The notes under the pieces are model-generated. The model had not been told where the DNA came from, searched no databases, and saw only the letters and a program-made list of their open reading frames with translations. A DNA stretch of 64,000 nt, taken from positions 23,299,385 to 23,363,384 of the forward strand of contig NC_088295.1 of NCBI RefSeq assembly GCF_032854445.1, in the 5' to 3' direction. The stretch is from Liolophura sinensis. Its lineage: Eukaryota; Mollusca; Polyplacophora; Chitonida; Chitonidae. This document shows positions 12,401-62,170 of the stretch, in pieces. Made by a program: the position numbers and the translations under genes. Each line of letters begins with the position of its first letter. Within the stretch, counting starts at the first letter, position 1.

Positions 12401-15400
12401 TGTATGTGATTATATTTACTATCTGCAGTGGACATGTTAAGGAATGAGGGCTGTTTCAAGGAGGAGAACAACAAATCTGCCTGGGACATGCTGGATACTT
12501 ACTACAGTGCCACTGGGCTGACCATAGATACATGTTCCTCATATTGTAGTTCCCAGGGCTACAAATATGCAGCAGCCATGGTCAGTGTATACACTTTTTA
12601 TAGATGAGGAGGATAAGTTTTAGTTTGAAAAGTTGCTATAGCTATTTTCACACAGTGTAATTGGTTATGGCCCATACACTTTTACTGCTTCCCCTATGAG
12701 ATGGCATGAATAATTAGTTTAGTGTTCCATTGACAAAGGACCACTTCATTGGCCCAGTAGTTAGAGCATCATACTCGAAGTCGGGAGACCCTGGGATAAA
12801 CCTTGTGTCTGGTCATACAAAAGACTTTAAAATGGTACTTGCTGCTGCCTTGCTTGGTGTACAGCACTGAGAGGTTAGAGCAAGGAAACAAGACTGGTTG
12901 GCCCGGTGTCAGTATAATGTGGCTGAGTGGGTGTTGTGTCTGGTGTCGGCATGATACTTCAGTGGTTGCACCATTTTGGCAGCATGGACTCACTCTGCCA
13001 CAAGGGACACAATATATGTACTCACACTTAATGACTCTTCGTCATCATATGACTGAAATATTGTTAAGTATGATGTAAAACCCTAAGCATTCATTCATTC
13101 ATTCCATTGACAAATATTACGGTAAATAAGCTCAGTTTTGTTTGTTTTAATTCTATTTTGATTTGTACCATTATTTGATATGAATTTATTGTGGGATTTG
13201 AAATGCACAATAACTTTACTTTCTCAGGAAGGAGACTTGTGCAAATGTGGTGACATGCGTGGTAGATATGGACGTTTGCCAGCATCAGCATGTAGCACAC
13301 CCTGCAAGGGAGATAACTCTAAAATATGTGGTCACACAGATGCCATGTCAGTATATGGAGTCACAGGTATGTAAAATCATGGGAATGTTGTTAAAATTAA
13401 TACCCATGCTCTGTACTAAAGACTTGACAAGATGTATTCACTTGCTGTGACAAATAACGGCAGAAATGGTTGTTCGAGGAGTTAGGCCATATTGATTCAT
13501 GCAAGTATTGAGACATTATGTTGTGCAGTTTCACATTTCATTTTGTGTAAAATGAACAAAGCTAATGCTTTACTGTTGACAGAGGGAAGATGCAGTAAGA
13601 ATATGGTGGCAGACCCTGATACTCCAGGTACCTGCTATGTCATGTCCCAACATGAGGACACCTGGCTGAACAGTCGACATCAGTGTCAGGAGATGGGAGG
13701 AGATCTGGTCACATTGTCTGGCCCAGAACACAACACGTTTGTAGTGGAGAGTGTGCTGTCCAAGCTCAGAGCAGATGGGTCAGTGCCCTGTAATCTGTTA
13801 AGCTTTTTGTGTCATAAAGCTAAAGTAATTGATACCTGACAAAGGGCTGGGGTTTATTTCATGCACTCCAGTTTCATCTACTGGTAAATTTGGCCACCTT
13901 CATACAAGAGGAAATTCTTGAGAAAGTTGCTGTTGATGCGTAACAGAAAGAGAGTTAGCACCCAGCTCTTGAAATGTGAGTTGCTTGGAGTTGTATGTTA
14001 GCCAGTTATTTCTAAAATTCATGACCTTCCAGTCTTGTTAAGCATATATATCATTCATTCCTTTGATCAAAATTATATTTTTGACTGACAGAGAGGTTTG
14101 GATTGGTTTATATCAACCAAGAGGAGTGAGCTTATACCCCGAGTTGCCTTATACTTGGATAAATGGTAGTGTCTCCAGCTGGATGTACTGGGACAGTCTG
14201 CAACCCAGCGATTCTCACACCAACAAATATAATAAAGTAAGATACAGCTTTTATATTTAAACTGATTAACATACTATCACACCTTATATGTTTGCACCTT
14301 TATTGTTGGAAACTTTCTGGTGAAATTTACTTCTCCCATCAAATTAATTAAGAATGGATCTGAACACACACGATCTTATTATTCTGTTTAAACATATTTT
14401 TATCAGTGTTGTGAGTGACTTCCTTAAAGTATAGCAAGCACTGACCTGTTTACATTGCAGGATTGTGTTGCTGTGTTACCAGGTGGCAGATGGGTAGATC
14501 GTGCTTGCACTGAGAAACATTTCTTCATGTGTCAGTTTACAGACACTAATGTACTGCTGTCAGGTGAGAGGTTACTTGTTTTCCAGAAGGAAAACATTAT
14601 TAGTAGATCTTTTAAGCTTTCAGGAATTGATCTGTAATTTTATACTAAAAATATCATTAATTAGAATCCTACAGTGGCTGAGTTTAGGAGGCTAAAATCT
14701 TAGCATCTTCATATTATAGTTTATTGTTACCAGTCATGTATTAATTAGCATTATATTTTCATGTTGTGTTTTCCACAGGTGAACCCACAGTGACAGAGTT
14801 TCTTGATTTTGAGTATCTTTCTCCAGAAAACATAACAGAAGTTGTAGTTGAGGGGGTATCTGGCCATGGAAGGAGGGTATCAGTGGCTCACCCTCTATCC
14901 ATTACATCTGTATACATTTCCTGTCTACACCACCAAGACCTCTGCCACACTGATTTTACCTTCATGTTCTGGTATAACATCCCAAGAGTATCAGGGGATA
15001 TGGTGGTGTTCTCAACAGGTGACTGTCACTCCCTAACTATTGGCAGTGGGGGCCTGTGTATGGTGTACTCCAGTGCTGATAGTACAATCAGGCTGATAGA
15101 TGCCCGTGTGAACTCTACCCTAGTCCTCAGCACCCCCATACCTACAGACACCTGGAACCACTTAGCTATTATAAGAAAGCCATCCTCCGCAGAATTAGAG
15201 ATTTACCTGAATGGCCAGGTGTTTGGCCCATGGTCTGTGGTTCCTGACCGCAGGCTGACACCTCATTTGTTACAGAACAGGTTACAGTTTGGGGGGTCCC
15301 CAGGAATGATAACTGGCATTGGAGAGGTTCACCTGGATGATGTCCTGTACTTCAACAGACATCTCCTGGACACAGAACTCTCACTCATTCTAGGTAAGTT

Positions 15401-18400
15401 TGAGGTGCAATCATGCACATTATTTTTACCTTTTCTTGTACTTTCATCTTTAGTTCTCACTTCTTGTTAACTGCTGTCTCTAATCCACATCAGATTTATT
15501 ATTGTGTATAAGCAATATTAACATTTCATCAATATCTGTTTGTGATTTGAGATAATAATACTTTCATGTTGGTAAATTATGTACCATCATATTATTGTGT
15601 ATGCTACATTTTAAATATTAAACTAAGTATAGTTAGAAATCTATTCACAGAAAGCTATTTTAATGTTGGTGTATATGTAGGTGAGAAGTATGGTGCCACA
15701 TCCGACCCTTCAGTGTTCTGGTGGAGTTTTGACCTTCCTTTGCACTACCAAGGTCACAGTCTGTTATCAGGGATAGGAGTGAAGGACATTGGGATACATC
15801 TTCCATCCCTTGGATCAAAGGTCATCCTGGATCATTTGACCTTGTCTTGTATCAATGATTTTGACACATGTATAAATGGTTTCTCTGTGTCATTCTGGGT
15901 AAAAGTCATAGGAAGCTGGCCCAGGATTGTTCTTACAACTGGTGCATCTGGTACTTCTCAGCTGACAGTGTTTTCCAGTGGGTACAGATTATATATCTTA
16001 CACACAGCCAGCTCTACAACCCGAAGAATTGATATGCCGATCACCCCAGCCTCATGGTACCATTTGACCCTCACCTGGGATGCTGTGTCAGATATTCTTG
16101 TTTACCTGGATGGGGAGTTGATGGGATCTGTGAGTGAACACCTGTCAGGTGTGAGCGGTGTGAGACTGAGGTCTTCGCAGTTGTCATTAGGGGAAGGTAT
16201 GATCTTCTCTTTTTATGCTCAGTGATGGATTATACTGTTTTTGCATTTATGATGTTAAATTGTACATCATTTTATTAAATATTGTTATAGGTGTTTAAGT
16301 TAGGAGTATCCATGAATTGTCTAATCAGCTATTGCAGTATCATGCACCTGTTTGCTTGTGCTGTATCCAGAAATAGAAATTCCAAACATCAGTAATGATT
16401 TTCTGCTAATTTAAATGTAAGAAATCATATGACAGGTATGTGTTACTCGGTGATTGTTTCCATGAAACAACAATACTTTTGCTTTATATATTTATGTTAT
16501 TTGAATGGTGTTTAATGTCATACTCAAGAATTTTTCATTGGTACAGCGGTTAACCCACAGAGTGCGCACAGTAAACCCACAGAGTGCGCACAGTAAACCT
16601 GGCTGCATTATCAAGGTTACATAATGTAAAGGTTGAATGAAAATTAAATGATGCTAGAAAAAAAATATTAAGTTGTAACACTTCAGTGATAATCATGTTA
16701 CTGGCTGATGATGTCAATTTTTTGGGCAGGACTATGTCCCCTTGGCTGGGTGTCCCGAGGTCAGTCATGTTACAGTCTGTTCTCCAGTGTGAAGTCTTAC
16801 ACAGAAGCTGTCAGCTCCTGCTCAGAGCACAACTCACACCTTATGGTGGGGGAGGAAGAAGCTGAATGGGGAGTGTTAGCAGTGCTCCTCCAGGCAGAGT
16901 AAGACACTGTTACTCTGTATGATTCTGGTCAGATACATTAATTATGGTGTTCTCAAGAATATTGCACTTGTGCAACGACAACTAGCATTATGGTCGGAGG
17001 AACCCAGGAGAAAGACACGACCTTCTGCAGGTTGCTGCTCAAATATCACATGGTGTGAAGTGTACAACATTTTGACTGATGATGTGCTTTTGTAAATTAT
17101 TCGAATCATATTATTCAGTGGAGTTTTCTTTTTGTTTTGAAATACATGTAGTATGATCACCATGGCATGCTTTTGTTGACACCGTGCAATGAGAATGTTG
17201 TTTCTTTATCAAGGAATTTATAGATACACATTCTTTATGTATAGAGCCTTTATAGTTACCCAATGCCTTTATATTTATCAAGTGCCTTAATATTTATTCA
17301 GTGCCTCAGTGTATATTCGATGCTCATGTATCCTTGCTGATCTGATTTTCCCTTTCAGATCAGCATTTATTGGCCTGCATGATGCTGACCCTGGCTTGCA
17401 GCAAGAGTGGCGGGGTGTGAGGGGGTTCCCCCGGGAGGGCGAGAGTGTGGCGGGCAGCACAGGGGACAGGTGTGTGGTGGCTGAGTATAACCATACCTCA
17501 CAGGTCAGCTCTCTAAGGGCAGAGCCATGCTCCACACCTAACACATACATATGTGAGCTGGAGATGCTGGGGAGGTCAGGTAAATCTTAGGCCATGGTTC
17601 CTGTGGCAGACATGTGTATAGTATGTGAGCAGTATAATGCTTTCTGAGTCATGCTGGCAATGAACTGTGGCAGATTGCCAAATTTCCTTTCTGATTTATT
17701 TTTTAAAAGTTCAGTTTCTTGTGACTTTCTGTGGAATGAATGATTATGGCTTAAGCCACATCAGCAATTTTTCAGCGATAAGTTAAGAAATATAATGAGC
17801 AAATCTATTTGTCTGTGGACTATACCTTTTTATTGCTGGTAGCAACTGAAATTTAAAAGATGTTGTGCAGGCTCTTGGCAAATATGTGTTAATAATAAAA
17901 CAAATAAAATCTTACTTTTAATAATTATTACAAGCAATAATCAAATAATAATTCTTAAATGAACATTTGGGTGTATATAAACTACCGGGCAAAAGAAACA
18001 TATAACTTTTAAATGCAGCTTTTTCTATGGAAAAATAAGTTGAATAAGTTTGAACGTTGTGCGAATACGTTTGCACATAAGCACCCTGTGTACACGTCAC
18101 TTTTTAACGAGATTCATTGAAATTGGTGTAAGACATCATGAAAAATCGGAAAAACAGAGTTTCGGACCCTGTTGAAAAATCTCGATAATGACCGCCGTAT
18201 AAATACCGATGTAGCACATGGTAAGGGTGCAATACCATAAAAAACATCTAAGAGATGCCGAGACTCACACAAGCAGAACATGATAGAGCCACTGGTATGG
18301 CCGACATGGGGGCCAGCCAACACCACATTGCCAGAACATTCAATTGCAGTCAAGCCACCATCAGCAGACTGTTGGGTCGTTACCGCCTAACAGGCAGGAC

Positions 18401-21400
18401 ACAAGATCGTCCAAGATCAGGCAGGCCAAGTGTTACAACGCCTGGCGAAGACCGGTACATCAGCACAATCCACCTGCGTCACCCCATCAGCAGACACACA
18501 GTCTTACGATGACTCCGCGTGAGTGGCATCAGAGCCTATCGCCCCTTCCGTGGAATGGCATTGACTCCTCTACACCGTCAAAACAGGCTGCGTTGGGCAA
18601 GAGTTGTACGTCGATGGCAGTGACGAGACTGGGAAAGGGTGCTGTTCACTGATGAAAGCCGATATAACCTCTTCAGAAATGATGGTTGAATTCGTGTGTA
18701 TCGACGTAGGGGAGAGCGATTGGCACAAAACTGCATTCAGAATGTCCACCCTTTTGGTGCTGGTGGGGTGCTTGTATGGGGTGGAATTTGTGGACAGGTG
18801 AGAACGAGATTGGTCATCATCCAGGGACATCTGACTGGCCAAAGATACCGAGATGAAATATTGGAACCTGTTGTGGTGCCATTCGTGCATCAACAGCAAA
18901 GGGGTATCCTTTTGCAACAGGACAATGCACGACCTCATACCGCCAGAGTTGTACTAAATTATCTGGACACCGTTGATGTCAACATACTGCCTTGGCCAGC
19001 ACGATCGCCAGACATGAATCCCTTAGAGCATCTGTGGGATCATCTTGATCGATGTCTGAGACAACGCGTCCCTCCCCCACAAAACAGGCAACAGCTCAAA
19101 CAGGCTTTATTTGAGGAGTGGGACAGAATTCCTGATGACGTCATCTGGCGGCTGACGACTTCCATGAGGAGACGTATTTTGGCTTTAATTGATGCAATGG
19201 GTGCTCACACACGCTACTAACGATCTGTCTTATGACATGATAGGACATTAGGTACACCTTTTTAAGGGATTCCCTTCACTTGCATTTATGTAATTTTTCA
19301 GATTTACCCCATGCCTTCTTTACTCGGCCTGACAGCAAGTGTAATATCCATATGGCTTTGAATTTTTGAACAGAACTTGGAAAATGGTTTATTGCAATAT
19401 AATGCTTATCATGTTGATACTGTCTGTCTTTCTTTCTCTTTCTTGTGGTGCTGAACAAGGTTATATGTTTCTTTTTGCCCGGTAGTTTATAATATTGTAC
19501 TACTCAATGTTGGATTCACAAAGTGCATTATGAATAATGATCTTTTCCCAGATGCAGCCTTGGAAAAATTCAGATGTCCTCTGGGTTGGTTGCTTAGGGA
19601 TAAATCTTGTTACCATGTCACCAATGTCACTCAAACCCATGACCAATCACAGCTGGACTGTGCATCAATGGGAGGAGAGTTGGTTCAGATTGAAACAGCA
19701 GAAGAACAACAAGCTGTTTCAGATATTGTCTATGGGTGAGTATATTGTCTCCATTTATAGGAAATATAAGTGTTATTAATATGTAATTTGGAGACAGTTA
19801 TGTTTGAATATTAAAATTCTTTATCAATTACTATTACATGTGCATGTCTTTTTCAGTTTTAGGGTGTATACTTTTGCTCAAAGTCTATTTACTGTTTACA
19901 ATTTATTCATATAACATTTTCACTAATGATTTTTTACTTTGTAGCGGCGGGTCTTCTCCAGCATTTTATCACTTTGGCCTAAGAAAGATTTCCCACAATG
20001 GTCAGACTATGTGGGTGTATTGGAACAGACACAGGGTGGATTACACTAACTGGAACAGCCAGGAAGCTGAGCCAGGCAGCTCTAACAGCTGTGCAGCACT
20101 GAATTGTGACTTTGGTCTGTGCAGGTGGCACAGTGTTCCTTGTGACAAAAAGCTGGCCGCTGTCTGTGAAATGCTGGCAGGTAATCAAATTTTGACTATT
20201 CAAACTTTTGTTTAGTCTTAATGAAAACTCATGTTTTTCAACAAGATTTTCCTTTTGACATGAACAGCTTATTGTTACATCTTGAGAAATTAACATGTGT
20301 GCTCCTGATATATCTGTTCTGGATATAAAAAATATCTGACATAATGACCCCGATATGAATGTTCCTGATATGTCTGTTCCTTATCTGAATTCTTTTTGAT
20401 GTGGAGATTCCTGATGTTCATCATGATAAGAATGTTCCTGATTTTATATTCATTATATGAATACTCTTGATTGGCATGTTCCTGATTTTATATTCATTAT
20501 ATGAATACCCTTGATTGGTATGTTCCTGATTTTATATTCGTTATATGAATACCCTTGATTGGTATGTTCCTGATTTTATATTCGTTATATGAATACCCTT
20601 GATTGGTATGTTCCTGATTTTTTATTCGTTATATGAATACTCTTGATTGGTATGTTCCTGATTTTATATTTGTTATATGAATACCCTTGACTGGAATGTT
20701 CCTGATTGGAATGTTTTTGGTGCTCATGAACTCTCAGCTGTTTGTCATCACTCATAGTTTCTGCCTGTTCACCACAGAGAGTTTGTGTGGTCCAGGGTGG
20801 GTGAGACACGGCGACATGTGCCTGGGGGTTTACTATGCCCCATCTGTGAACTCTGATGTATGTGTGGATGTGCAAACCAGACCTGCACAGATCACCAGTG
20901 AGGCTCAGGCCAAGCAGATTGCTCTACAACTTAACCTAGGTAATGTTCTAAACTTTCTAAACACTGTGCTGAGGAAAGAAGACTGTGACAAGCAACTTAC
21001 TGTAGGCTGACATCTTAGTTTGAGGGGTGGGAGTAGCATCATAATTTGTTGGTATGCAATACGCACTATTTACTCAGGCCTGGAGATCTAGTAGCCTAAT
21101 AACATATCCCAATAGAGGAGTTTCGAGTTCAAAATCTTCTTATTGCTAAAGGTAAAAAAACCCTACTGTATTGTGTGACCTGTCAAAATTGTGGGCACTA
21201 TTTGAGATCACATTTATTATGGCATGAGAACCAGAAAAATGTTTCACAAACAGTAATTTTGAAAAGATGAACGATGGAGACAATTGAGGTGCTGAATGTT
21301 TGTGAACTTGAGAAGTCTCAGTTGTGCTGCTGGAACACGGTGAGACTGGTGATCAGTAATTTAATGTCAGTAAAGTTTGCCTAACATTTTTCATTCTCTG

Positions 21401-24400
21401 ATTTTTATAGAATAGGAGAAATATTTGTTTGATTATTCACATGAGGTTAAAACATAGAATAAGGTCATATACATTTACCTGGGTTATTTTTTTGCAGACT
21501 CCACTCCCTGCATAACAGATGGGGTTCTGTCAGGGGACACAACTCTGACCTGGAACACCACCCAGGCAGCAGCTCCTTCTCCCCTGTTTGCTTTTCCACT
21601 TGAGGGTGTGGGTCAGTGCCTTGGGGTGAGCAGCACAGGGAGCAAAAGGATGGACTGTGCAACTCCAACCTGTATCCTGTGTGAATATGGTAAGACAATG
21701 AAATGTCATAGATTTCAACTGCAATTTTCATTAACTCAACCAGAATGTTCATTGCTGTATGTTTGAAGGAGTATTTATATCTGTCAGTATTTTGTGATAT
21801 ATTTTGTTTTTCCTTCACAGGGCGAGATTCCTCACTGTTTGTTGATAATCTGCAGTTTACTGAAAGACCTATGAATCTCTCTGAGGTTCACGAGCTGGCT
21901 ATCAATGAAGGTAAGAAGAAGATTATCTCTTTACAAAACTGTAAAAAGGACAAAATGTTAATGTTTATCCGTGCTTGAAGGAACTTTTGATTATATTGCA
22001 TTTGTATCAGTTACTGTATACTTCTATTGTTCCAGCCCCATCAACCATCTCATACTACTTCTCTTTTGACATGGGCATTGATGCTGGTCACCTATATGGT
22101 ACACGTAATGAGACAGGAAACACCTCATCTGTCAGCCTGTCTCTGTCTGGTGGGGTCAGGGTTCAGGCTTCTGTCCTCCACACCAGTTACCTGTCTGTAA
22201 TCAGTGATGGGACACCTTCGCCTGCTGCCGTCCTCACCCTCACTCCACAAGACTCTTGTCTACGGCGCATCCAGGACTGTAGAAATGGCTTGACTGTATC
22301 CACATGGATATACATGAACAACTCGGCAGACCTGACACTGATAGATAATAGAAATGGAAGGAATGGATTTAGAGTTTTGCTGACTAAAACGTGAGGCAAA
22401 CTTTTTATATGCCCTTATTATCAGTCATATTATAGTTTGGTGTTTTCTGCCCATAAACTATGTTGAAATTACCACTATATCTACAGAACTGCACATACAA
22501 TGAAAGCTGTCAAATTTGTTTATTGTTGTCGCTACCACACTAACAGAAGCTTGTTTCCCATTTAAAGTTAGGCCTCATTGTTTAATACATTGCTCTTTCA
22601 TGTCAACAGCATATTGCAGAATTGGTTCACTTTAATAATAGCTTGAAATATGATGATCCTGTGTATTTTGATCATCATCTTTGTTTGTTATTCACTATGT
22701 CGTGATGGGCAAATCTCAAGGGTCTAGCAGTCTTTATGATCATGTGACATTTGGAAGCATACATGAAGCTCTGAGAGAAGAAGATGTTATTGTACAAAAC
22801 TCTCTTCCTATTGAGTTAAATGTGACTAGATTCATTATCCCAAGTATTGTTTAAATACTGATAACGCTGCTTTGTTTTACATACGCAGGTCTTCAGAAGA
22901 TCTTGTGATAGAGTTTGAAGTTTATGAGACCTCGTACATGTGGAGAGTTACCTCCCCGTTTCCTCTCAAACAGTGGATGCATGTGGCATGTGTCTGGCAT
23001 AGGTTCCTTGGAATGAATCTGTATGTCAATACAGTCTTGATGGCAGAGCTTTCCAGTCCCCAGTATCAGACACCTACAGAGCTGTCTATGTCTGAAGCGA
23101 ATTCTCATATTGCTCTCGTCAACTCAACAGATGCAGTGACCATATACCTTGATGAGCTATATATTGAGACAAGGGCCTGGGGTCGCAACCGTCCTCTACA
23201 AGAGTATGGTGTGTTGTCAGTGTTTTAATACATGTAAACCCAAAACATATCTTCTTGTCATTTTGAAGTTCACTTTTTAGACAGTCAGCTTTTTGACTGC
23301 AATTGCAGTATAGAAGAATTTGATTATTATCATGATTAATTAGTATTTTTTCAAACACCCAAGCATTTAATGTGTTTTTTTCTTTTTTTAATTTTATATC
23401 AATTCACAATTCTGTGTGGCCTGATGGTTAAACCAAAAGCTTGTTTTCTAAACATTATCTCCTGCAGATGTAATTCCCAAACAGCAGTTCATAGACTTTG
23501 ATGCTGAAGAGATTTGGGTGGACAATACCCTGGGGATCAGCATAAATACTGATGTGTCCAATGTGAGGTTGTGGAACAGTTTCTTCAGAAACTACCTGTC
23601 TATCACCAACACAAGGGGTGCTGCAGCAGCTGTCTCCGTTGATCAGACCCTCAACTGTTTTTACAAAATTGGTAAATGATAATATAAAAGAATTGGAAAG
23701 TTTTTGCTTAGAATTTCACGAACATTTCAGTGCAGTTGAGTGTAATTAATGACCAAAGATGTGTTTGTAATAGACTTTATTATTTTTACTATAATCTTAA
23801 GAGTAAAGAATGATGTATGTCAATTGTATACCAGCAGGTGTGTGTTTCGTGAGACCCTGAGGTAAAAAAATGAAATCCCATTGAAGTGAAGTGTTTGCAA
23901 CCGGGTTTTGTGTTTATGTTTCTTTGAACAGAGTTGTGTCGAGGACCATTATCTGTATCCTTGTGGTTACGGCCTGAAGATCTGGAGAGTGACCAGAGCT
24001 TTGTGCGGACATTCACCCTGACCTCTGATCAGCCTGTGGAGGGCTTCAGGCTGAGCTACTCCACCATAGACGACCTCTACCACTTTGACGTATACAGAGA
24101 GAAGTCGCAGTACCGTTGTGGCTTTGACCTTCAGGCTCATCTCTGGTCCCATGTAGTGGCAGTGTTTGACCCCTCTGCGCCCTCCATCAGTGTCCATGTG
24201 AATGGTCATGCGAATGGCTGTATTACCACCCTGACCACCTACCTCCCCCAGAGGCTGCCTGGTCAGTCACTGACCAGTCAGCTTGAGATAGGAGGTGCTG
24301 GGCAATTTGATATTGATGATGTGAAAATGTTTGACCACATTGTGGATCCAGCCACTTTATATAGTAAGTGGATCTAACTGAAGCCAATCTTTGATGACTC

Positions 24401-27400: not shown

Positions 27401-30400
27401 AGTGGTCTACTATGCCGTAGTGAAGCAACATCTGATCTGAGTGACTATCAGCAACATCTAGTGCTCATCCCCATGGACTGGAACGTAAAATGACTTATAT
27501 TTAAGTGTATGGATTACTTCACAATTGATTTATAGCTTTTATACCTTCAGGTTCCCAACAGCTGTGTGATGTAGACTGGTATCTGGAGGAGTCATCTGGC
27601 CAGTGTTATGGTCTGAGTCAGTCCAGCCAAGCCTTCTCTGATGCCGACTCAGACTGTAAAGCCAAAGGGGGACACCTGGCTAAGGCAGAGGGGAATGTAA
27701 CCATGGAGTGGATTAAGCAAAGTTTGAATGGTCATTTTTTTTGTTGTTGTTGTTGTTGGTAAAAAAATGTGACTAAAAGAAAAAGAAGCATTCAACCTCA
27801 TTTTTGGACGGGGAATATTCAGAATTTCCTGCTTCCAAGAAATTCAAGCCAATCCAGTCAGGAAAACCTGGATTCAAACCTGCAAATTGTCTTCAGAGAG
27901 CACAAGCCTTTTACAGAATCAGCCAGTCAGACATGAGCATTACTTGTGTACAACATATTGGATTGCTTTGGTGGCCTAATGGTTAGTGCATCCTCCTCAG
28001 AGTTGGGAGACCACGGGATCAAACCCGGGTCTAGTCATACCAAAGACATAAATAATAGTACTTGCTGCTGCTTCTCTTGACACTCAGCACTTAGAGGTTA
28101 GAGCAAGGCAACATGACTGGTTGGCCTGGTATCAGTATAATGTGACTGGGCGAGGTATCCTGTGTCTTCAGCATGATACTTCAGTGGCAGCAGAACTTAT
28201 GGACTCACCCTGGCACAAGAAGACTCACTACATCTACACACACCTAATAGCTTGTTGTCATCATATGATTGAAAAATGCTTAAGTACAGCGTTAAACACC
28301 CAGGCATACATACATACATATATACATGTATCTGTATATTTTCTATTTGACCCTCCTGTAGATTACCCAAGCGTGAACAGTGTATACCTGAGCCTGCGTC
28401 AGTACCCTCAGCTGGGTCATCGTTACAGGTGGTATGATGACAGTGTCACGCAAACAGTGACTTTGTCCAGTGCCACATACAGGTGTGCTGTGCTGGCCAG
28501 AGAAGGCACAGACTGGGCATGGAACACTGCTAATTGTGCTGATCAACATCACTATCTGTGTCAGAGAGAACCCTACGGTAAGTCAGGTTATTGCTGTCTC
28601 AAGTGTCACAACCAGAAATCAACTTGCAGTATGAGTTTGGAAGATTAAGTTATCTGCATAACCAAATTTGTTTCAGAAGTGCTTTTGTGTAGCACATGTA
28701 CTGATGTGTATGAGGAGAAAAAATGGAGTTGATTTATTTTTGTATACTTCATTTCCAGTCTAGCCTGTAGAAATGCCCTTTCAGTATTACCTGGTAAAGA
28801 TTTTGAAACAACTTTTTCTGATAAGAATTAATTAAACTTTAAATGAAAAAACTATTAAGTCGTGGTGGTGTTAAATAAGAAAATTTTAAAGGGAAATTCA
28901 TCGCTGTTCTAATGTGTGGGCCAGATGAAATAACAAGCAACTGAGGCAGCACAAAGATTCCCATAATGCATCTGTCTCTTGTGGATCGCACATGCAAACA
29001 GCATGATACATTGAAAGCGAATTATAAGTCTAGTGAATGAAATACAACCTTCCTATCTCTTGATGTTTTATGAAGTGTTCATATTTCCGAACGATCTTTA
29101 TGGCAGAACTGAAGTTACATGGTAGACCACATAATTACAACACAATACCATGCTTGACATTTCAAGTTCGCTGAAGATATCTGGTCATCTAGACAAGGGG
29201 AGGTAATTGAATCAAACAAATCAGACTTTCTAAACACAGTGAGTTGATGGTCAAAGGGAAACCCTGGATAAAACTGAACATTTGGTTCTTCACTTAAAGC
29301 CAGATATGTGTCAGTAGACGTGTGGAAGTCTCGGCTTTATGTGGATGATGTCTAAAATAACATCAAAATTGTTTTGACATCCACTGTATGTTCCTTAAAA
29401 GGAAAACTTAAAAATAAAAAAACTCTGGGTGCCATACATTTCATCCGTTAACCGTTACTCTAGCATCAGTATCTCTACAATTTTCTCTCCATTTTTGTCT
29501 CATTTATAATTTTTGATCAGACATCTCCCCACGAAGACTGGTTGTGGATGGCCTGAATGACACTGCCCCTGCCATGCCCTCACAGGGTGTTGTTAACCTG
29601 ACCACAGGTATCCTAAACACAGCGGTCAGCTTGTCGGGAGCAGAAGTAAGCTGGTCACTAATGGATGAGTGTGCTGTGAATCCCATATTCTGTCACAGTG
29701 GGTTTGGAGTAAGGTTCTGGTTATACCTCATCCCTCAGCCTGGTGTGACTGGCTGTGCCCTGCTAGAGAAGAGGTCCAGTACAAAAGCTGGTTTCAGCCT
29801 CTCCCTGCAGTCGGGTGCAGAGGGAGAGTTGATGACGTTCACAGAACGGACTATCTAATGAGGTCCACACAACAAGCTTCTACATCACTACCACAAGCTG
29901 GACATATGTGTCTGTCTCAAGGTACCCTGATCAATCTGTGGCCGTGTACCTGAATGGCCTGTTAGCTCAGACAAACACTTCCTCAGTGACAGTGGGTTTT
30001 GAGTTTCCCACCCCTCCCCTGGGGACTGTGGCTGAGGTGAGGGTAGGAGCCTGTCTTGAAGATAGTGTTACTCTACCTGTGTGGGTGGAGGATCTGATGA
30101 TTGTAGACCATATCCTAAACGAAGCTCATGTTCGACAAACAGGTGAGAACATTCAAGTACATGATGTATATAAAGTACAACACTGTAGTTTGTTCAGTTT
30201 TACTAGTCTCTTCGTAATTCTTAGGTTATAATTAAGCTGATACAATGATGTATGAGAAATTTTGTTGGACTAATGAATTACTTTTAGTAAAAATCCCTTA
30301 TAACTGAACATGATTTTTCACCAACTAATTACCCTTTAGTACTAGGGTTTGTACATTTAGTAGAGCAATTACTAAGCAATTACTAAGTAAATTACTAAGT

Positions 30401-36400: not shown

Positions 36401-39400
36401 CCCGAAGAAGCCATGCAGTATCTGTGTACATGTCACCTTGCCCACTCTGTAGTGACACGGTTCACCGGGCTCAGGGCACTTCGGGGGTGTTCAAGTTTCG
36501 TGAAAGATCAGCGATGAAGTAATTTCTGAATAAAACTGACCGATGACAGAAAATATGCATAATACAGAGGGATAATGAACAGGTATGAAACTACCCCCAA
36601 AAATAAATTTTTTTAACAAAAATCCGAGGCATAATATTCTTCATTTGGCATAGAAACATAATCTTTATTTTATAATTCCTTTTGATGTATCCTTTAATGC
36701 AGTTTTCATAAAAATATATTACATGTACAGTATTTGTATCCTTACATCACCTAGGGTTCTCGATTGCCATTGGCTTACTAGACAAATTGAAATATCGACA
36801 TACACTTGCCAGAGCTGCAGGCCACGCGAACACAGGGTATATACATCAAGTTGAGGGTTTAAATAAGTGATATCCTGTGCAGCTGAATTTGATTTGCAGG
36901 AACAAGTATGATGAGTTTGGTGATGTCCTTATGTGACACTGCATTCCATGACGCATCATTCCGACGTCACACCATATCAGTCACCAAAGCCTGCATGATG
37001 TGTCTTAATCCAGCTTCATGCATAATCAAGAATGGCTTTCTATTTGACAAACATTACGGGGACAAAATCGTTATCCATGTGTTGAGAAAAGTATATGTGA
37101 ATTTAACCCTGGGTGTGAAACTTTGCTTGGATCACAGGGTTAGAATTTTAAATCCCCATATACCCTTCTTAACATGTCAATAACTTATGGCATACCTGCA
37201 CATATTTATAAGGCCTTTAGCCGTAGTAATGTTAAAATAGAAATAGAAGCATAATTTTATTTTGATTACCCTTCTGTTTTTCGAATGTAGATACATGTTG
37301 TTACTCTCTGTTTTTATTGTTATCAGATCTATGAGAATCCTGCTGGTTTGGAGGAGCTGGTACAAACCTACTTGGTTTCAGATTGTATTCCTGATCAGAA
37401 CACAGGCTGTACTCTGCTGGTCAGTAATGGGCTGCTGGACATCCTCAATGACAAGGTAATACTTAACCGCTTCTATGCAAAAATCAGAATTTTCCTCTTA
37501 ATCCAGGGATAAAAAGATTGCAGATGTAATGTTTTATTATTGACAGGATATTTTCATCTCATTAACAGGTTACAAAGAATGGATTTTCAGACACTGATGG
37601 TTCTTCCTGACCCAGTTCTTTCAGTTTTTCCATTTAATCCAAGGATAAAAAGATTGCAGCTATATTCTTTTATTACTGAAGCGATCTTTTCATCTCATCA
37701 ACAGGTTACAAAGGAGGGATTTTCAGCCACTGATGGTTCTTCTGGTTCCAGTGCTGAGACAGGGGGCACCACAGGTTCTGAAGGTTCCACTGGCTCTGGA
37801 GGTTCCACAGGTGCCACAGGTTCTGGAGGTTCCACAGGTTCTGGAGGTTCCACCAGTTCTGGAGGTTCCAACAACTCTGGAGGTTCCACTGGCTCAGGGG
37901 GTTCCACTGGCTCTGGAGGTTCCACCAGTTCTGGAGGTTCCATTGGCTCAGGAAGTTCCACAGGCTCTGGAGGTTCTGGTGGATCTACCTCAGGAGGAAG
38001 CAGTTTGGTACAGGTAAGATTATCAGGTGTGAATCACACAAATTGGAAATACGTGGAATGCAATATTACAGAGGTGTTTTTGCACAATACAATGTCAGTT
38101 CATTGCCTTTAATCTCTCTGCAGTCGCAATGGTTGTGTAGCTCTGTTCTTTCCTAAAGCTTTGATATTTGCATTTAGTTTGAAGCCATAATTTGTGAGAA
38201 TTTGTTGGTTTATGAAAAGATCATGTTCAGTATCTACCTGTATGCACCTGTATCATGAATGTGCTTGTGTATTGTAGGTCCTGGATGATGTGGTGAGAAT
38301 CCTGTCAGAGAACACCAACATTGTGAACACTGTGTCTCAGCTGGAGATGGCAGTGGAGGCTGTCACAGCCATCCAGAAGACACTCAAGTACCCAGGCCTG
38401 CTCTCTCAGGTTTGTCTCTTCTAATCACCATACATGTTATTCTACGGCCATCTGTCAGAATGAATTAGGAGTTGTGATGTCTGTCATTGTTGCAGTTTAG
38501 CAGCAGAAAAAAATAAATAGACAAGCTCTCATTGCTTGTTGTTTGCCTTGGTGACAATAAGCAATATTCAATGCTCATGTGGCCATTTGTGCAGTCTCAC
38601 ATTATCTGTAAGTCACGTGTGGGAAAGTTCATCAGTAACTTGTCAAAGGTTGATGGTTTACTCCGGCGTCCTCCACTCATAATGCTGAGTGCCATCATAT
38701 CAGTGAAATATGGTGTCAAATAAATAAAAAAAAATAAAAAGAACTTCTCTGTAAGTAGGGTCTGAAAGTCTTGTAGATTGTTAAAGCTTTTACTTTAATT
38801 ATTGGAAATACTTTGAAGAAAAATGCACTTTTGCTGATGAAACTGAGAATTGTGTATTTTGTTTTCATCAAATTTAGTCAGCTCAGCAGAGCACAACAGA
38901 AATCCTCAGAAGCCTGGTTACTCGAGCCCCATCCTTGTTAGCCTCTGCAGATGTATCATTGTCTTCTGAGATTGGAAAAGGTTGGTCTAAGCAGTGTATT
39001 ATATAGAGACATTTCATACAGTGTGATTTGTATTTCTAATTTGTCATATTAAATTTCTGAATAGCCATTTTAATTTCAATTAAATGGGGGAAACTGTATG
39101 AGATAGAACTTTATACCTTTCATTAGACTGATTGCATGTGATCAGTTGATACAAGTTTGATTTGATCATAGCTTTTGGAACACAGTATTGTAAATACATG
39201 TTTTTTTCACTCTATAAGGTGTGGAAAAAAGTATTTCAGCTCTGCAAGAGCAAGATCCAGGAGCTTTTGGGATGTTCATCAATGAAAATGGTCATCAAAA
39301 AGATATTTCTAACTAAACTAAGAGCAAAACACAAGTGAGTGATGATCCAGTGTAATTCCTCACAGAATGGACAGTTTAATTTCCCTGTGTTACAGCCCTG

Positions 39401-53187: not shown

Positions 53188-56100
53188 TCAGAATGAAGAA
53201 GCACCGGTCATCTTTCTCACTTGCTCATATGTCAGCCAGAAAGTCAGTGACCAGGGAGCCTGAAACACACCAAGACATTAAACATGTCACATGTATTTGT
53301 TGCTTGTTAAAAACTTTGCTCTCATCATTATTTTGGTTTTATCATTACGATGTATCCTATTGGCAGGATGGTCTCAATACAGACTTTGTTTATGCAGGAT
53401 GAAAGAATATTTCATGTATATGACATGGAAATGTCCACATTTTATTGAAATGCTAAGTAAGTTTGATGACGTCAGAGGGCAGCAAACAGGTAGTGAATAG
53501 TTCTATTTTATTTATTTATTTGATTGTTGTTTAATGTTCTACTCAAGCATTTTCACTGCTGATTGATGGTAGTGACATTTATTTGGGTGGAGGAAATAGA
53601 ATAAAACACTGATCTTTTGCAAGTTTAAGATGAACTTTCAGTGACTTACAGATATGACCACCATACTTGTGAGAAACAAGAGGTTTCTACAAACATTAGG
53701 CTGCGCAAAAGACCACATGAGCATTGTTGACTGCTTACTGTCACTCAGACCCCACAAGCAGTAAAAGTGGGTGAAACTAGAAATTCCCTGTCTAAGGCAG
53801 ATAGTTTCAAGAAAACAGACATGTACATGTAGGTATAAAATGTCAACAATGCCTGAGTGCCTAGGAATTCTGATGGATTATACAAGTACTCCTCTTTTCT
53901 ACCTTTCCCCCCAATGTCAAGCATTCATCATGACCAACAAGACTGTGACTGACTGACTGACTGACTGACTTCAGAATAACAAAACAAAATGATTCCTTCT
54001 ATTACTTCAGCAATCTGTGCTCATGGTTTCACAGAAAGTCAAGCACGGAAGAGTACTGAGTTTGGGACCACCCTGCTAAAGCTGGAAAGTAGGAGTTCCC
54101 CCTTCACTCATTCAGAAAGTATGTTCAGATTAAAATGACAACAGATTGATGTCATAGATGACAATCCAGTGACATCAAGCAGAGATATGTGCAAGTTTCC
54201 TTTGAACTACTCTTGTACTGAATTCAGAAAGACCATGCACATGGCATGCATAATTTCTGTCAACTGATAAAACTATCAGTTAAAGCTATCAGCACATTAA
54301 ACATTCAGGTTCTGAACAACTCAGCAGTACTAGATACACTCACCATCCTTGCCCAGATAGGCAAGAATCCTTTATATAATGCCCAGAATCCCTCTTGGTT
54401 GACTGTTTTCATGAGGCAATCCAGAGAGGACTTGTAAACCACACCTCTGTCAAAACACAAACACAGGTCATTTAAAGTAGAACACCAATGCTGGGCCTTC
54501 TAAACTGCATGTATATAACTTTATGTCCCCTGAATCCACTTTGATCATTTAAAAGACTGAACAGAGAAGAAAAATGGTAGAATTTGATGATCAAACATCA
54601 GCAAATCTACCTCACTATGATGGAGCCACCCTTGACCTTGTAACCTCACAGCGGTACATTCGCTGTCAGGCATGCAGGCTTCTCTGTGTACAACACAGAT
54701 AACAGGAGACAATCGCTACACCTTTACAACTAATTTCGATATTATTCCACACCCAAATGTGGCACAATACCGTAAAGTTAAATACCTGGCCTAAAACTGC
54801 TAGGGATTGAGGAAATATGGACCAGATATGTCATTGTAAAAGCCCTTTGATTGCGGAGGACTCGAGCAATTGTAGTTGTACATGTATGAGACTTGCTTAT
54901 TCTACAATGTCTATAATCAAAGAAAAGGCTCAAGGATGAGGCTTATATCCCTTCTAAAATGCCAAATGAAAAAGAAAAGACGTCAGGATTTTCACTCCCA
55001 AAATGCAGAAGTTGTTTAGCTATTTGCTTGTTTGAAACAGTGGGTCGTGACACAAACTGTAGGGAGCTGCTAGCCTTTGCCCTACAATGTCCACGATGTT
55101 AGAGGATAGCCCTCCTGTTCACACCGCACTCAGAGGGTGCGTGATACCTCACAGCATGCCATACCTTGATGCCGTAACTGGACAAAGTTTAAATTGGCAT
55201 TTAGATGTCTTACCAATCACTGTTTCCATTCAATATAATTCAAGCCTTATTTATTTTTGCTGGTGACACTTTTTAGAAATTAAGCATAAAAAAATAGCTT
55301 GACTGTTACTTTCCCAAGTGTTGAGCGACAGAGTGCTCTGGCTTGTCACTACACCTCACAATCCACTGGCCTGACAGCATGGCCATCGACTTGACTATAA
55401 AAATTTACACCGTGCCAAATTTTCCATGGGTACAACCATGCTCAATTCCTGGCAGACAAACCAGATAGGAGCGCGTCTGCTTCATTTGCAGAGACTGGTA
55501 AGTGAGCAAAAATCCGTCATTGTATTGGCCAGTCGCTATGCTGTACATGATTTTCAAGGATCTAAAACAACTCCGGTATTTTGCAAAATGTTTGTTGCAA
55601 AACTGTCTTACTGATATGATTTTCAGGTTGCTAATTAACAGGTGTACACGTAGGGGTAACTATAGATTAAGTCATGCCATGGCTAATTCTGGAAAAGCAC
55701 ACCTCAGGTAGGCCTAATGCACGGATTTGGCCATGCTTTGCAGGGCTTTTCAATCCAATATCCAGGCACATGTTACTGGCATGATTCAATTTTTTAAACA
55801 GAACTAAGATAATGTTTTTTTAAATGCAGTTTACAGATTAACATCGCATAAACATTTAGTGTGAAAATAAAGTCAGTAAAATCTAGTTAAAAAAATATAC
55901 ATATAACTGTAAATCTACTACATGTCCTTCACAAATACAGCATATTTTCAGGCATGGTTAAGACGTAAGGACAAAGTGACTACATGCTGGCCACAACTGT
56001 ACCTTGTTTAAACCCAGACCAATACATACATGTACATGCAGCAGGCCAACATGACACTGACACCAAAGCCCATGTCATACATGTGCTCCATGGAAAGTCA

Positions 56101-59100
56101 CATTTCTGTTTCCAATCAATGACTTACTTGCCGTGTTTCCTTTTCTGATTCATGATTCTTGTCTTGACAACATCAGCAGGGGTACCTAAGACAGCAGCCA
56201 CGACACCTGAGCAAGCACTGCAGCACAGAGAACAGCTGGATTGTCACCAATACATTCTAACATGCTCACATGCAAATGACTACACATATTCATTTGTATG
56301 TTCGTGTCCTGAAGAAGGCACTTGGCCCGCCAACCAGTTACTAGAGTCCTCTCTCAGACAGGGATAGCAAGTATACTTATTTATCTGTTTTCACATGACA
56401 ACTTCAATCATATGACAGATTATGTGAGAAACTAGAATTCATAATGTCCAGAAAAAGGTACTTTGCCCCAAAATACCTAATTACCAGAGTACTTTCAAAC
56501 CTAGGATATGAGCCACATTATCTTGTTTAATTATAAAGGAAGAAGTCTCTATGTATGCTTGTGCACCACTGTTCATCTGATTTACTTTACACTTGCCAGA
56601 TGTATTACTGAGGACACAAGGACGTGCAATGTTGAGTATTAAAACAAGATTTCAGAAACTCTAATCCATTTTCAATAGGCTTCCAAGCAAATTACATGTA
56701 TAAAATAAAGACTCTAAGTTAACCCTACATCACAAAAACAGAAGTTGAACTGCAGAAATTCTCAGCCCTGAATAATTATAATACCCCAGTTAGCGGATTT
56801 TTTTTTTTGATTGGTGTTTTACGCCGTACTCAAGAATATTTCACTTATACGACGGCAGCCAGCATTATGGTGGGTGGAAACCGGGCAGAGCCCGGGGGAA
56901 ACCCACGACCATCCGCAGTGTCATTCCTCCTCAGCATTAATGTTATTATATCATTTAGAAACAATCTCTGATGAACAGCATGCTCCTCTGTATAACATAA
57001 GTCTACACCTGAGCATATTGGCCTACACTTATGTACCTGTAGGCCTAGGTGAATATAAGCGAGTCTTATTATTATTTCAATCTAATTTTAAAATATCACA
57101 TTTCAATTTAAAGGATATTACTTAAGATACTTTAACGATTTATTTTTTCAATCTTTTTTTAAATTATTATACTCAATACACACTGACAATACACTGATTT
57201 GGTTCATGAAACTTCAAAGGTGCATTTAATGACTTACTCATTTCACATTGTATTTATTTACCCAGGGCTGTTCACAGCCTAAGGGCCACAATTTATAAAG
57301 TTGTTTTTTTTTTTTTTTTGCCTCTGAGTCGCCTGTTACACATATAATTACATGTATAAAATAAAGACTCTAAGTTAACCCTACATCACAAAAACAGAAG
57401 TTGAACTGCAGAAGTTCTCAGCCCTGAACAATTATACTACACCACTTAGTGGAACCATTGTGGAGCAATCTGCTTCTATTCAAACTGGTAGAGTATAGCA
57501 AGGAAACACATCTCTCAACAAAAGGTACAAGACAGGACAAAATCTCAAAAAATTTTCTATAAATCTCACTTCGCACCATTTTTCACTCTGGAATGGTGAT
57601 GTAGTTTATTTTGATAAAAATAATCAGTATAGTTTTAGGGACACTATGTATACAATTTAAGGCCTAACAAACCAATTAAGATGAAAATAGCAGATAAAAC
57701 ATAGTGCTGTTGTAATATATGTCTGATTATTTTGACATCAGGCCATGTGGTGTAGCCTATTTCTTCATCTCCTAGTTCCTCCAGGAAACAAGTTTTTAAT
57801 TTGGTATGAACACCTTTCCATGCATCATTTCTTCACGTTTACCTTGCTGAAGCTTAATTTATATCAAGGGATCAATTAACAATTGAACGGCACCCATAGA
57901 GTATATTCTCATCACACCGCTCACCAGTACCATGATCAATCATCCTTTGAAAGTAAAAGTAAATTTCTTCTTTGATCCATTTTTAAAGTGGTAATAAATC
58001 TTATGCCTGATTTTGGTTATCCAGGGACAAGATTTAATTTCTGTACTTTATATGTCATGACCATTTTTGTCGGTTTTTCAGCGGTGGTACAACTTTATAA
58101 AATGCAAATAAAATTACACTGAAAATTATTTATTACTTACCTGGACATTGTATGTGTGACGTAATTATCTGTCAAATTAGTATGTAACAATAACTGATGT
58201 TTCACTGTGTCGTAAGTAGCCATATCTGAAGTAGAATAAACACAGTACCCACATATGTAACCATAAAGTAATGTTACTGGCAAATAATACCAACAGATCT
58301 CTGCAAATGGAAATTAGTTTTCAAATTTCAGAGAAAAAAAGACAATCTTAAACACCCCTCCACTACTTTCTCAAAAAAACAAACAAACAAAAAACATGAT
58401 ACAAAAAAAATGACCTTTATTAAAATGAGGATGTAGATTTAAACTGCCTCATAAAGTATGTCACTGTGTATAACTACAAGTGTGGACTATGAAAGGTCAT
58501 ATATATGCAGATTGTGTATTTATCTCCCTTACCTCCCATATTAACTAAAGCTGCTCTCTGTACATTTGGCACCACGCCACTCCATAAACCCCGGATACCG
58601 CCATGATGAACAATTTTTCTAAATGCATGAGCTGTGTTTTCAAATCTGAAAACAAAAAAAATGACAATTACATTTAGTTTAAAATAATCAACACAGCTTA
58701 AACCAGTTTTTGCTGGTTTTTATGGAATGAAGAGCTAGGACTTAGTAAGCCAAGACACTTTCCCACACCTACATTATGCCGTGCATATGTGTAATAAGCT
58801 ACATTATGTCGTGCATATGTGTAATAAGCTATTGAACTTACCAAGAATGACAAAAAATTTTCCATAATATCATAGAAGTTAACAGAACATCACAATGCTA
58901 TTTTTCGCATTTAAACATTTGTCTCATCATACAGTCTAGTACTACTTGACAACAACTTGACAAATTATCTGCCAAAGGCTGGGTTTGAACATGCACATTT
59001 TGTGTCCTCAGCAACTCTACTATTAAAGGTGCTAAAAGCCTCTATATCAAAATCACTTTTCGTAATTTGTGTATTTGTGATTATCTTAACATTTTTCTCT

Positions 59101-60375
59101 GAATTTTACGAGCTCTGTTGAACTTCACTGACCTGCCATGTATCAGACTAGTAAATACATGTAAATAAAGTGAAATAATAATTTTACACTGACATAATAA
59201 TACAGTATTCCCTGAGGAAGTCCTGGAAAATTCTGCCTACGATATCTGTAGACACACTGTGAAGATCCAGTAGCACCCCTACAGGCAACTTATTTACACT
59301 GATTTCTTAATAATGAGTGACTGTCATAATAAAATTAACTTCTGACAGACGACATATATCCGTGCACATGAGCCACTTCAAATTGGAGGGGAAAACTAAG
59401 GTTACAAGTTATAAATTAGTTTCTTCATGCTTGAGTAGCTCAGGCCACGTAGCTTCCAAGTACTATAACATGATATGATAATCAGCATAAACTCCCTGGG
59501 GATTGCATGTCTTCTAAATTTAGGACACTGCCTGAACACATTATATGAACTACAAGTACAAGTGACTGCACAGGATGTATACAGCTTAACTTTAACATCA
59601 ATTACTCATACTTAACAAATCCTTCCTTATTTAACATAACCCATGACGTCTTTCAATAAACTCATACATGTACCATTTTAGGATTCTGAACATTTTGCCC
59701 TGAATACTAGAAGAATTAGCTGGTGATATGGGACAAGCCAGAATTACACAGCCATAGAAAAGAGATGTCTTTTCACACATGGCATACATTTCCACCCATA
59801 CCATGAAGAAATACATGTACATGTTATCCACAGTGTCATGCCTCTTCAGCATTAGTGTTATTATATCATTTAGAAGCAATCTCTGATGAACAACATACTC
59901 CACTATATAACATAACATAAGTCCACACCTGAGCATATTGGCCTACACTTATGTACCTGTAGGCCTACATGAATATAGGAAAGTCTATTATTTCATTCTA
60001 ATTTTAAAATATCACATTTCAATTTAAAGCATATTACTTAAGATACTTCAACAATTTATTATTTCAATCTTTTTTTAAATTATTATACTCAATACACACT
60101 GAAAATACACTGATTTAGTTCATGAAACTTTAATGACTTACTCATTTCATATTGTATTTATTTACCCAGGATTGTACACAGCCTGAGGGCCACAATTTAT
60201 AAAGTTGTTAAAGACTATAAAAACACTGCCCACTACTAGACTGGTAGATTACCTGGGTTTTTTGCCTCTGAGTCGCCTGACCCCATCCATCTGCATCTGG
60301 ACTTTGACCAAGTCTGTGGGACTAGCAATGAGCTGACCTATTGCCCCAGCACATATCCCTCCTACAACTGCCTTC
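53188..60375 (-). CDS. UCP4: Mitochondrial uncoupling protein 4 (SLC25A27-like), C-terminal six exons
   Basis: Exons in transcript order: 60375-60253, 58645-58533, 58225-58141, 56217-56128, 54446-54344, 53259-53188, all joining in phase with GT-AG borders. The reading contains [23 protein letters not shown] (second carrier signature), [38 protein letters not shown] (third signature), [16 protein letters not shown], and ends T-G-A-S-S-F. These features are specific to UCP4 among SLC25 carriers. An inner-mitochondrial-membrane transporter linked to mild uncoupling in family members. About 195 of about 320 residues are present; the first third of the protein is not found before 64000. Confidence 0.95.
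53512..53590 (-). mobile_element. SINE family A fragment
   Basis: Tail-end fragment (atttatttgattgttgttta, ctactcaagcattttcac) in the last UCP4 intron. Confidence 0.5.
53944..53971. repeat. TGAC tetranucleotide microsatellite
   Basis: Six to seven uninterrupted gact units within the last UCP4 intron. Confidence 0.85.
54447..56127 (-). other. UCP4 intron, nothing recognisable
   Basis: 1.7-kb intron between the exons at 56217-56128 and 54446-54344. Short open frames at 55426-55711 have no support. Confidence 0.5.
56690..57455. repeat. Inserted duplicate of UCP4 intron/exon-edge sequence between direct repeats
   Basis: 56694-56795 and 57348-57455 are near-identical direct repeats. Between them lie a SINE family A fragment (56797-56922) and, at about 56925-57335, a diverged copy of 59832-60276. 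That copy ends inside UCP4 coding sequence (gcctctgagtcgcctg, matching the exon at 60253-60375), so a 16-bp exon relic is embedded in this intron. Confidence 0.85.
57456..58140 (-). other. UCP4 intron remainder, nothing recognisable
   Basis: AT-rich sequence between the inserted duplicate and the exon at 58225-58141. No element or frame supported. Confidence 0.5.
58771..58830. repeat. 30-bp direct duplication
   Basis: acattatgccgtgcatatgt plus gtaataagct is repeated once with a single change, within a UCP4 intron. Confidence 0.9.
59832..60276. repeat. Source copy of the segment duplicated at 56925-57335
   Basis: Intron sequence next to, and including the 3' edge of, the UCP4 exon 60253-60375. 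It keeps about 50 bp before the splice donor that the other copy has replaced with a T-run, so it is taken as the original. Confidence 0.75.
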
Positions 60376-61198
60376 CTACAATGCATAAAATACAAAACTG
60401 ACATGCGGGTTTTTGTCTGTCTGTATTGTGTCTAACCCTCATGGAACTTAAATGTGAGCAGTTCAAAAGTATGCAAGTAAGCTACTAATTCTGGAATTCA
60501 GGTTACAAAGACAAAATCATCAATTCTATCAAGGGCAAAAATCCTAGGCAATTATGTAAATGCATCACCTTGTTTCCATCCATTTCTCCATCTCATTTAT
60601 TAGTAGTATAACATGACTACATGTATACAGAGTTCAAAATATAGACATTTAAATGTGCAATGCGGGTTTAATAAGAGAACATGACATATTCATATGCACT
60701 GGGTCAACAGTTAACTCTCAGGGGCCATTTTTATCCCTGTCACAAGTGACATAATAATGGGAGTGTAACACTGCAGTTTATGAAGTGTAAATCCCCTAAG
60801 CTTAAAGGTTTCTAAAATTAAAGCAGCTATAAATGTATGTCAAATGCTTAGAATCATGTGCAACAGGTTGCAGACAGGCAAACAATGGACTTACACGAAG
60901 AAAACACATACATCATAAACACGCAGGCACATACTGAATGGGGTGTGACCTGTTCATGCTTGCGTAACAATCATACCAGGAAGTAATGTGATGTACTGTG
61001 GCATTTAACATCTTAGGATGAGCAATTATTTGACTACACAATATCATAATTATAAATTACAAAAAAGTTTTGTTCTCCTCTTGTCGTTCATACATATTCA
61101 TATGTTGTTCACATTATGATTGCTTTGTGGAACAACTAATACTTCTGATTTCTCTAATCCTTGATGAACATCAAAATGGCTCAGTTATCTAAGGCTTC
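60376..61198 (-). other. UCP4 intron, nothing recognisable
   Basis: Sequence upstream (minus-strand sense) of the first visible UCP4 exon. I looked for the missing N-terminal carrier exons here and did not find them. Confidence 0.5.
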
Positions 61199-61239
61199 TT
61201 GCTCACTGCAGACAAAAGGCTCTTTACCAGTCAGACCGA

Positions 61240-62170
61240 GTTATGTCGTTATATCTGTCAAGTTTTTTGGCCAACGGAAGAGAGAGTTATGTCATTATGT
61301 CTGTCAAGTGTTTGGTCAGGAGAAGAGAGAGTTATGTCATTATATCTGTCAAGTGTTTGGTCAAGGGCAGGCAGGGTTATGTCAGGATATCAATCAAGTG
61401 TTTGGTCAAGGGCAGACAGGGTTGTGTAAGGATATCAATCAAGTGTTTGGTCAAGGGCAGACATGGTTATGTCAGGATATCAATCAAGTATTTGGCTGAG
61501 GGCAGACAGGGTTATGTCAGGATATCAATCAAGTGTTTGGTCAAGGGCAGGCAGGGTTATGTCAGGATATCAATCAAGTGTTTGGTCAAGGGCAGACATG
61601 GTTATGTCAGAATATCAATCAAGTGTTTGGTCAAGGGAAGACAGGGTTATGTCAGGATATCAGTCAAGTGTTTGGTCAAGGGCAGACAGGGTTATGTCAG
61701 GATATCAATCAAGTGTTTGGTCAAGGGCAGACATGGTTATGTCAGGATACCAGTCAAGTGTTTGGTCAAGGGCAGACAGGGTTGTGTAAGGATATCAATC
61801 AAGTGTTTGGTCAAGGGCAGACATGGTTATGTCAGGATATCAATCAAGTGTTTGGTCAAGGGCAGACAGGGTTATGTCAGGATATCAGTCAAGTATTTGG
61901 TCAAGGGCAGACATGGTTATGTCAGGATATCAATCAAGTGTCTGGTCAAGGGCAGACAGGGTTGTGTAAGGATATCAATCAAGTGTTTGGTCAAGGGCAG
62001 ACAGGGTTATGTCAGGATATCAATCAAGTGTTTGGTCAAGGGCAGACAGGGTTATGTCAGGATATCAGTCAAATGTTTGGTCAAGGGCAGACAGGGTTAT
62101 GTCAGGATATCAATCAAGAGTTTGGCTGAGGGCAGACAGGGTTATGTCAGGATATCAATCAAGACAGGGT
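61240..62170. repeat. 45-bp minisatellite, about 20 copies
   Basis: Unit ttatgtcaggatatcaatca with agtgtttggtcaagggcaga and caggg, repeated every 45 bp. The first three or four copies (61240-61370) are more diverged, with agaagagaga in place of gcagacaggg. Because 45 is a multiple of three and the unit has no plus-strand stops, long open frames (up to 326 codons) appear in all three plus frames. No start context, splice site or known domain supports translation. It probably lies in an intron of UCP4. Confidence 0.93.

Follow-up and report, generated by a model that had tools for sequence, protein, structure and literature searches.

The window, by which we mean the whole 64,000-nucleotide stretch of DNA analyzed here, contains the greater part of one large plus-strand gene. 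Along this gene, CTLD, sushi, PAN and WSC domains are followed by eight LamG domains, then by WSC, PKD and REJ domains, and finally by a polycystin domain and channel. Pfam recovered PKD (56.3 bits), REJ (46.6 bits), Polycystin_dom (104.7 bits) and PKD_channel (102.6 bits), and with PKD, REJ and a polycystin channel in the same gene, its predicted product is a PKD1/polycystin-1-type receptor-channel. No match for GPS or PLAT was returned by Pfam for single-ORF pieces of the gene; reading by eye revealed a CxCTHLTTFGG segment and further stretches, which we take to be GPS-like and PLAT-like, respectively. Searches of the genome covered 609 Mb, and the counts drawn from them are lower bounds.

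The features considered here, from LamG1 to LamG3, are the following.

14779-15393, plus strand: LamG1, complete in a single phase 1-1 exon, used as comparison domain (Laminin_G_3 positions 9-150 of 151, 43.8 bits)
15681-16196, plus strand: first part of LamG2, strands up to the penultimate; phase 1-1 exon of 516 nt (Laminin_G_3 positions 6-107 of 151, 47.8 bits; AF2 model of this part alone, mean pLDDT 51.8)
16730-16898, plus strand: CTLD A, exon 1 (A joined, Lectin_C 43.4 bits)
17359-17579, plus strand: CTLD A, exon 2
17976-19491, no strand assigned: Tc1/mariner-like element in the intron between CTLDs A and B, outside the nest (35-nt inverted ends, 94%; DDE_3 38.5 bits, broken frames)
19552-19735, plus strand: CTLD B, exon 1 (B joined, Lectin_C 59.2 bits)
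19945-20180, plus strand: CTLD B, exon 2
20778-20939, plus strand: divergent CTLD C, exon 1 (no Pfam match; 9.1 bits in our own CTLD model)
21498-21689, plus strand: divergent CTLD C, exon 2 (our own CTLD model)
21821-21910, plus strand: proposed last part of LamG2, a phase 1-1 exon of 90 nt, hereafter the orphan exon (predicted to encode the closing strand, SLFVDNLQFTER, and a short helix, NLSEVHELA)
22036-23208 (exons 22036-22390 and 22889-23208), plus strand: LamG3, complete without the orphan exon

The LamG2 exon ends at the penultimate strand

The LamG2 exon passes the Laminin_G_3 cut-off (27.6 bits) with 47.8 bits, with a match that covers only positions 6-107 of the 151-position profile. 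The corresponding spans are 9-150 in LamG1, 16-149 in LamG5, 14-150 in LamG7 and 13-141 in LamG8. At its 3' end the exon reads ...SQLSLGE+G at a GT, in phase 1. In each of the window's seven other LamGs, the penultimate and last strands share one exon, and 22-35 residues, counted by eye, come after the former; the LamG2 exon has none there. The LamG2 exon is truncated at the penultimate strand and lacks the last third of Laminin_G_3. The original prediction that LamG2 ends without its closing strand was confirmed, as the match halts at 107 where intact LamGs reach 141-150, and the coordinates, phases and peptides it gave for the LamG2 and orphan exons were all correct. Past the exon end, the LamG2 frame is open only to 16225, where it meets a stop, so that simple extension of the exon gives no closing strand. 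The closest other LamG2-like exons in the genome share 24-26% identity with it.

A second tandem run of LamGs was observed in the same genome (locus L007, G000 C4:2366001-2376000), with closing strands VDEF, VDEM and FDEM, each encoded together with the remainder of its domain in one exon. Within the window, the LamG6 exon (29521-30142) carries a frame break near 29.83-29.86 kb, upstream of the last strands of that domain: one open frame ends at 29858 and the homologous continuation runs in another frame from 29836. This break reflects either a defective allele or a mistake in the assembly.

The CTLD triplet

Six exons lie between the two presumed parts of LamG2. They form three modules, A, B and C, of 390, 420 and 354 nt, each phase 1-1, for a total of 1164 nt or 388 codons; with its phase 1-1 ends and this length, the whole has the symmetric phases expected of an insert that splits a parent domain. 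Modules A (43.4 bits) and B (59.2 bits) exceed the Lectin_C cut-off of 22.6 bits and are CTLDs. CTLD C matched no Pfam family at an E value of 0.01. Against a model built from six other CTLDs it scored 9.1 bits over positions 2-127, that is, at full length, a score equalled by 1 of 962 scored shuffles. We consider C a divergent, CTLD-like module rather than a filed Lectin_C member. The count of three phase 1-1 CTLDs originally predicted thus holds for the six exons and their phases and is clear for A and B, but C falls below Pfam detection.

The calcium-sugar motifs of C-type lectins are EPN or QPD together with WND. Read by eye for these motifs, A and C contain neither, and B has EPG but no WND; from their sequences, none of the three CTLDs is evidently a calcium-dependent lectin. 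Identity among A, B and C is 15-23%, and 13-30% with five other CTLDs of the gene. Given this mutual identity, there is no sign of a recent tandem duplication of the CTLDs. A comparison of the two introns that flank the insert found nothing in common beyond chance. The intron preceding CTLD C contains a tandem array of a 44-bp unit (20432-20707, 6.3 copies).

The orphan exon and the closing strand of LamG2

The orphan exon translates as RDSSLFVDNLQFTERPMNLSEVHELAINE. Both its acceptor and its donor outrank all those scored in 26 other exons, and by the strength of its splice sites it is a real exon. Codon usage did not single it out (511 of 1,338 decoys were equally good) and is uninformative here as a coding test. 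A genome search with the orphan exon found no match beyond itself, a count that is a lower bound. It is not required as the start of LamG3, the first exon of which has its own usual opening strand.

In length, the orphan exon fits what LamG2 lacks. LamG2 has 171 residues alone and 201 when joined to the orphan exon, which contributes 29 residues and one split glycine codon (29-30); the range in the gene's six complete LamGs is 204-224. In the model of intact LamG7, the closing strand spans residues 181-191 and a helix residues 197-203, with block pLDDT of about 71-81. We compared the folds through the eight PDB chains common to the best 50 matches of the LamG2-exon model and of the LamG7 model. 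The gap between the end of the former and the end of the latter was 29 residues in five chains, 31 in one and 34 in two; as these chains are mutually related and confidence in the LamG2-exon model is low (mean pLDDT 51.8, 31 in the last block), the modeled shortfall of 29-34 residues is a consistent measure rather than an independent proof. The first-listed fold neighbors of the LamG7 model were receptor-binding jelly rolls of clostridial proteins, with which it shares the fold only.

The register was also as expected. In a model of 111 bacterial and 10 animal LamGs, LamG2 joined to the orphan exon aligned through the tail (positions 31-172 of 194), and the orphan exon by itself landed on tail positions 155-173. 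In Pfam Laminin_G_3, the match of the same joined protein still ended at position 110 of 151, with a gain of about 1 bit. As a control, addition of the LamG1 tail extended the match to 149 for just 1.5 bits more, indicating that Pfam has little power for a test of the tail.

The bacterial LamGs were gathered with a DNA pattern that yielded at least 117 loci, with 111 usable segments, 109 tails of which entered the motif; bacterial genomes searched with a LamG alignment gave no usable stretch, and a search with one bacterial domain as query gave no relative. With the bacteria-trained motif of strand and helix, the score of the orphan exon was matched by 165 of 20,000 of its own shuffles, a value to be read as the best of three column choices, and by 2 of 1,737 decoy exons; the orphan exon outscored 6 of 12 real animal tails. 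With 24 columns, 525 of 20,000 shuffles matched it, a result short of significance. For a motif from 11 tails of the same genome, 448 of 20,000 shuffles matched the orphan exon. Among decoys, 4 of 1,940 on the plus strand and 12 of 1,329 on the minus strand did as well, as did 10 of 1,203 stretches of thirty residues; the orphan exon itself beat 5 of the 11 real tails. Whole-model tests were weak. In our first HMM the orphan exon ranked 566 of 2,931 candidates with 2.5 bits, a gain that 970 of 2,000 shuffles also reached; in larger HMMs its gain was equalled by 133 and 83 of 2,000 shuffles, near significance but short of it. Altogether, the sequence match of the orphan exon appears to give moderate support, and the anatomy is the stronger part.

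These weak whole-model results would suit an alternative in which LamG2 is truncated and decayed and the orphan exon is an unrelated linker whose likeness to a closing strand is accidental, as would the strand-only motif of 12 columns, which 2,256 of 20,000 shuffles equalled and which is not significant. However, LamG2 scores as high (47.8 bits) as intact LamGs (43.8 and 43.9 bits), which argues that it is not decayed, and the linker would have to fit in length, phase and register and to reach by chance the score seen with the strand-and-helix motif. We consider this alternative unlikely.

The original prediction had named a closing strand in the vicinity of 16200-16700 as evidence against it; we sought one in 16197-16729 and found no convincing one. 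Eight phase 1-1 open AG..GT stretches begin there, and none gains more than 2.5 bits, which is the level of shuffles and also the gain of the orphan exon itself in the same HMM. A chance frame at 16687-16809 (IIMLLADDVNFLGRT...) reached a motif score of 5.35 compared to 5.90 for the orphan exon. It was rejected as a closing exon because it crosses the acceptor and opening codons of CTLD A in a different frame, and its use would destroy that exon.

Proposed architecture and origin of LamG2

Because the phases match, the missing length matches, the alignment is in register and no rival closing exon is convincing, the best reading of the locus is that LamG2 is one constitutively spliced, discontinuous jelly roll bearing a lateral branch of three CTLDs in a PKD1-type ectodomain, to which we assign a probability of about three in four. 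The orphan exon would then likely close LamG2. The discontinuous domain with a lectin insert that had been predicted originally is favored on phase, length and register, although the sequence match of the orphan exon alone remains moderate.

In this arrangement, 15681-16196 would supply the first 171 residues of LamG2 and 21821-21910 its closing strand and short helix, while the three CTLDs (388 codons) would occupy the turn that leads from the penultimate strand to the last. The two halves of LamG2 are expected to pair like those of other LamGs. Since the two ends of an insert placed before the closing strand lie at a single turn, the parent chain LamG1-LamG2-LamG3 would stay in line and the CTLDs would exit and re-enter there as a sideways branch off the stalk. 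Such a branch would probably serve to contact ligands laterally, while force pulling on the stalk would be carried by LamG2 and bypass the CTLDs. A more speculative and less probable reading is a branched ectodomain in which a LamG of the load-bearing stalk holds a three-CTLD arm, so that ligand capture is kept mechanically apart from stalk tension, and in which binding by the arm could either stabilize the LamG or put it under strain through the two points of attachment.

The original prediction also proposed a switchable cassette whose skipping restores LamG, some transcripts joining 16196 to 21821 for an uninterrupted LamG2 without CTLDs and others keeping the CTLDs. Skipping would indeed be frame-neutral, as the whole insert (1164 nt), like each of its modules, has a length divisible by three and phase 1-1 ends, but we found no positive evidence for it. 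Six exons would have to be skipped together, exons A1, A2, B1 and B2 taken singly are not multiples of three, and there is no signature of weak sites, the LamG2 donor and the first CTLD acceptor being ordinary (10 and 15 of 26 sites are better, respectively). Such a switch seems very improbable. We likewise give little credence to a remnant of rearrangement, in which a deletion brought the tail of another, now lost LamG to this place as the orphan exon, with secondary or no pairing to LamG2: LamGs and CTLDs do alternate along the gene, and the halves cannot be traced to one ancestor, since nothing closely related to LamG2 was found elsewhere in the genome, but two separate losses, complementary at the same turn, would be required.

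For the discontinuous LamG2, the most likely origin, and the simplest in light of what is established on exon shuffling, is that a symmetric phase 1-1 CTLD unit entered a phase 1 intron at the LamG2 turn. The predicted insertion of the CTLD triplet by exon shuffling into a LamG intron is compatible with the phase symmetry, with the direction of change being our inference. The event looks old, because A, B and C are no closer to one another than to other CTLDs of the gene and LamG2 lacks a close relative in the genome.

Insertion of a whole domain into another is known in nature. In integrins, the alpha I domain, a ligand-binding domain, sits within a loop of the beta-propeller, and the parent fold is kept. 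The proposed LamG2 is similar in placing domains in a loop of an extracellular parent of which the fold is kept; there, one Rossmann-like domain is held in a propeller, whereas here three tandem CTLDs would be held in a LamG jelly roll. Neurexin LNS domains, chains of which were among the listed fold matches, carry short, alternatively spliced peptide inserts in surface loops of a LamG-type fold. In contrast, the proposed insert in LamG2 consists of 388 codons of folded domains, and its splicing is probably constitutive.

Among the papers listed in a literature search, none was seen to describe CTLDs placed inside a LamG, though one may exist. Members of the PKD1 family such as polycystin-1 and the sea urchin receptors for egg jelly resemble the gene described here, which has PKD, REJ and WSC domains, a polycystin domain and a channel; the sea urchin members are described as having CTLDs, PKD, REJ, GPS and PLAT (PMC1934368). 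The searched passages of that paper contain no mention of LamG or laminin, whereas eight LamGs and the proposed nesting are present here. If our reading is correct, three tandem folded extracellular domains within one jelly roll are an unusual case, and exon shuffling can yield a branched rather than a linear receptor stalk. It would also bear on how adhesive modules are placed relative to the path of force in a polycystin-type protein. Such a nest would escape standard annotation, as the parent LamG is reported as truncated.

Elsewhere in the window, we observed, downstream of the REJ region, a Ser/Gly-rich open frame of tandem repeats (37769-37976), which is a candidate coding segment only, and a 45-bp tandem repeat (61232-62163, 20.7 copies) with more than one frame open. 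Three minus-strand frames (54305-54499, 58474-58719 and 60249-60431) resemble exons of a mitochondrial carrier gene.
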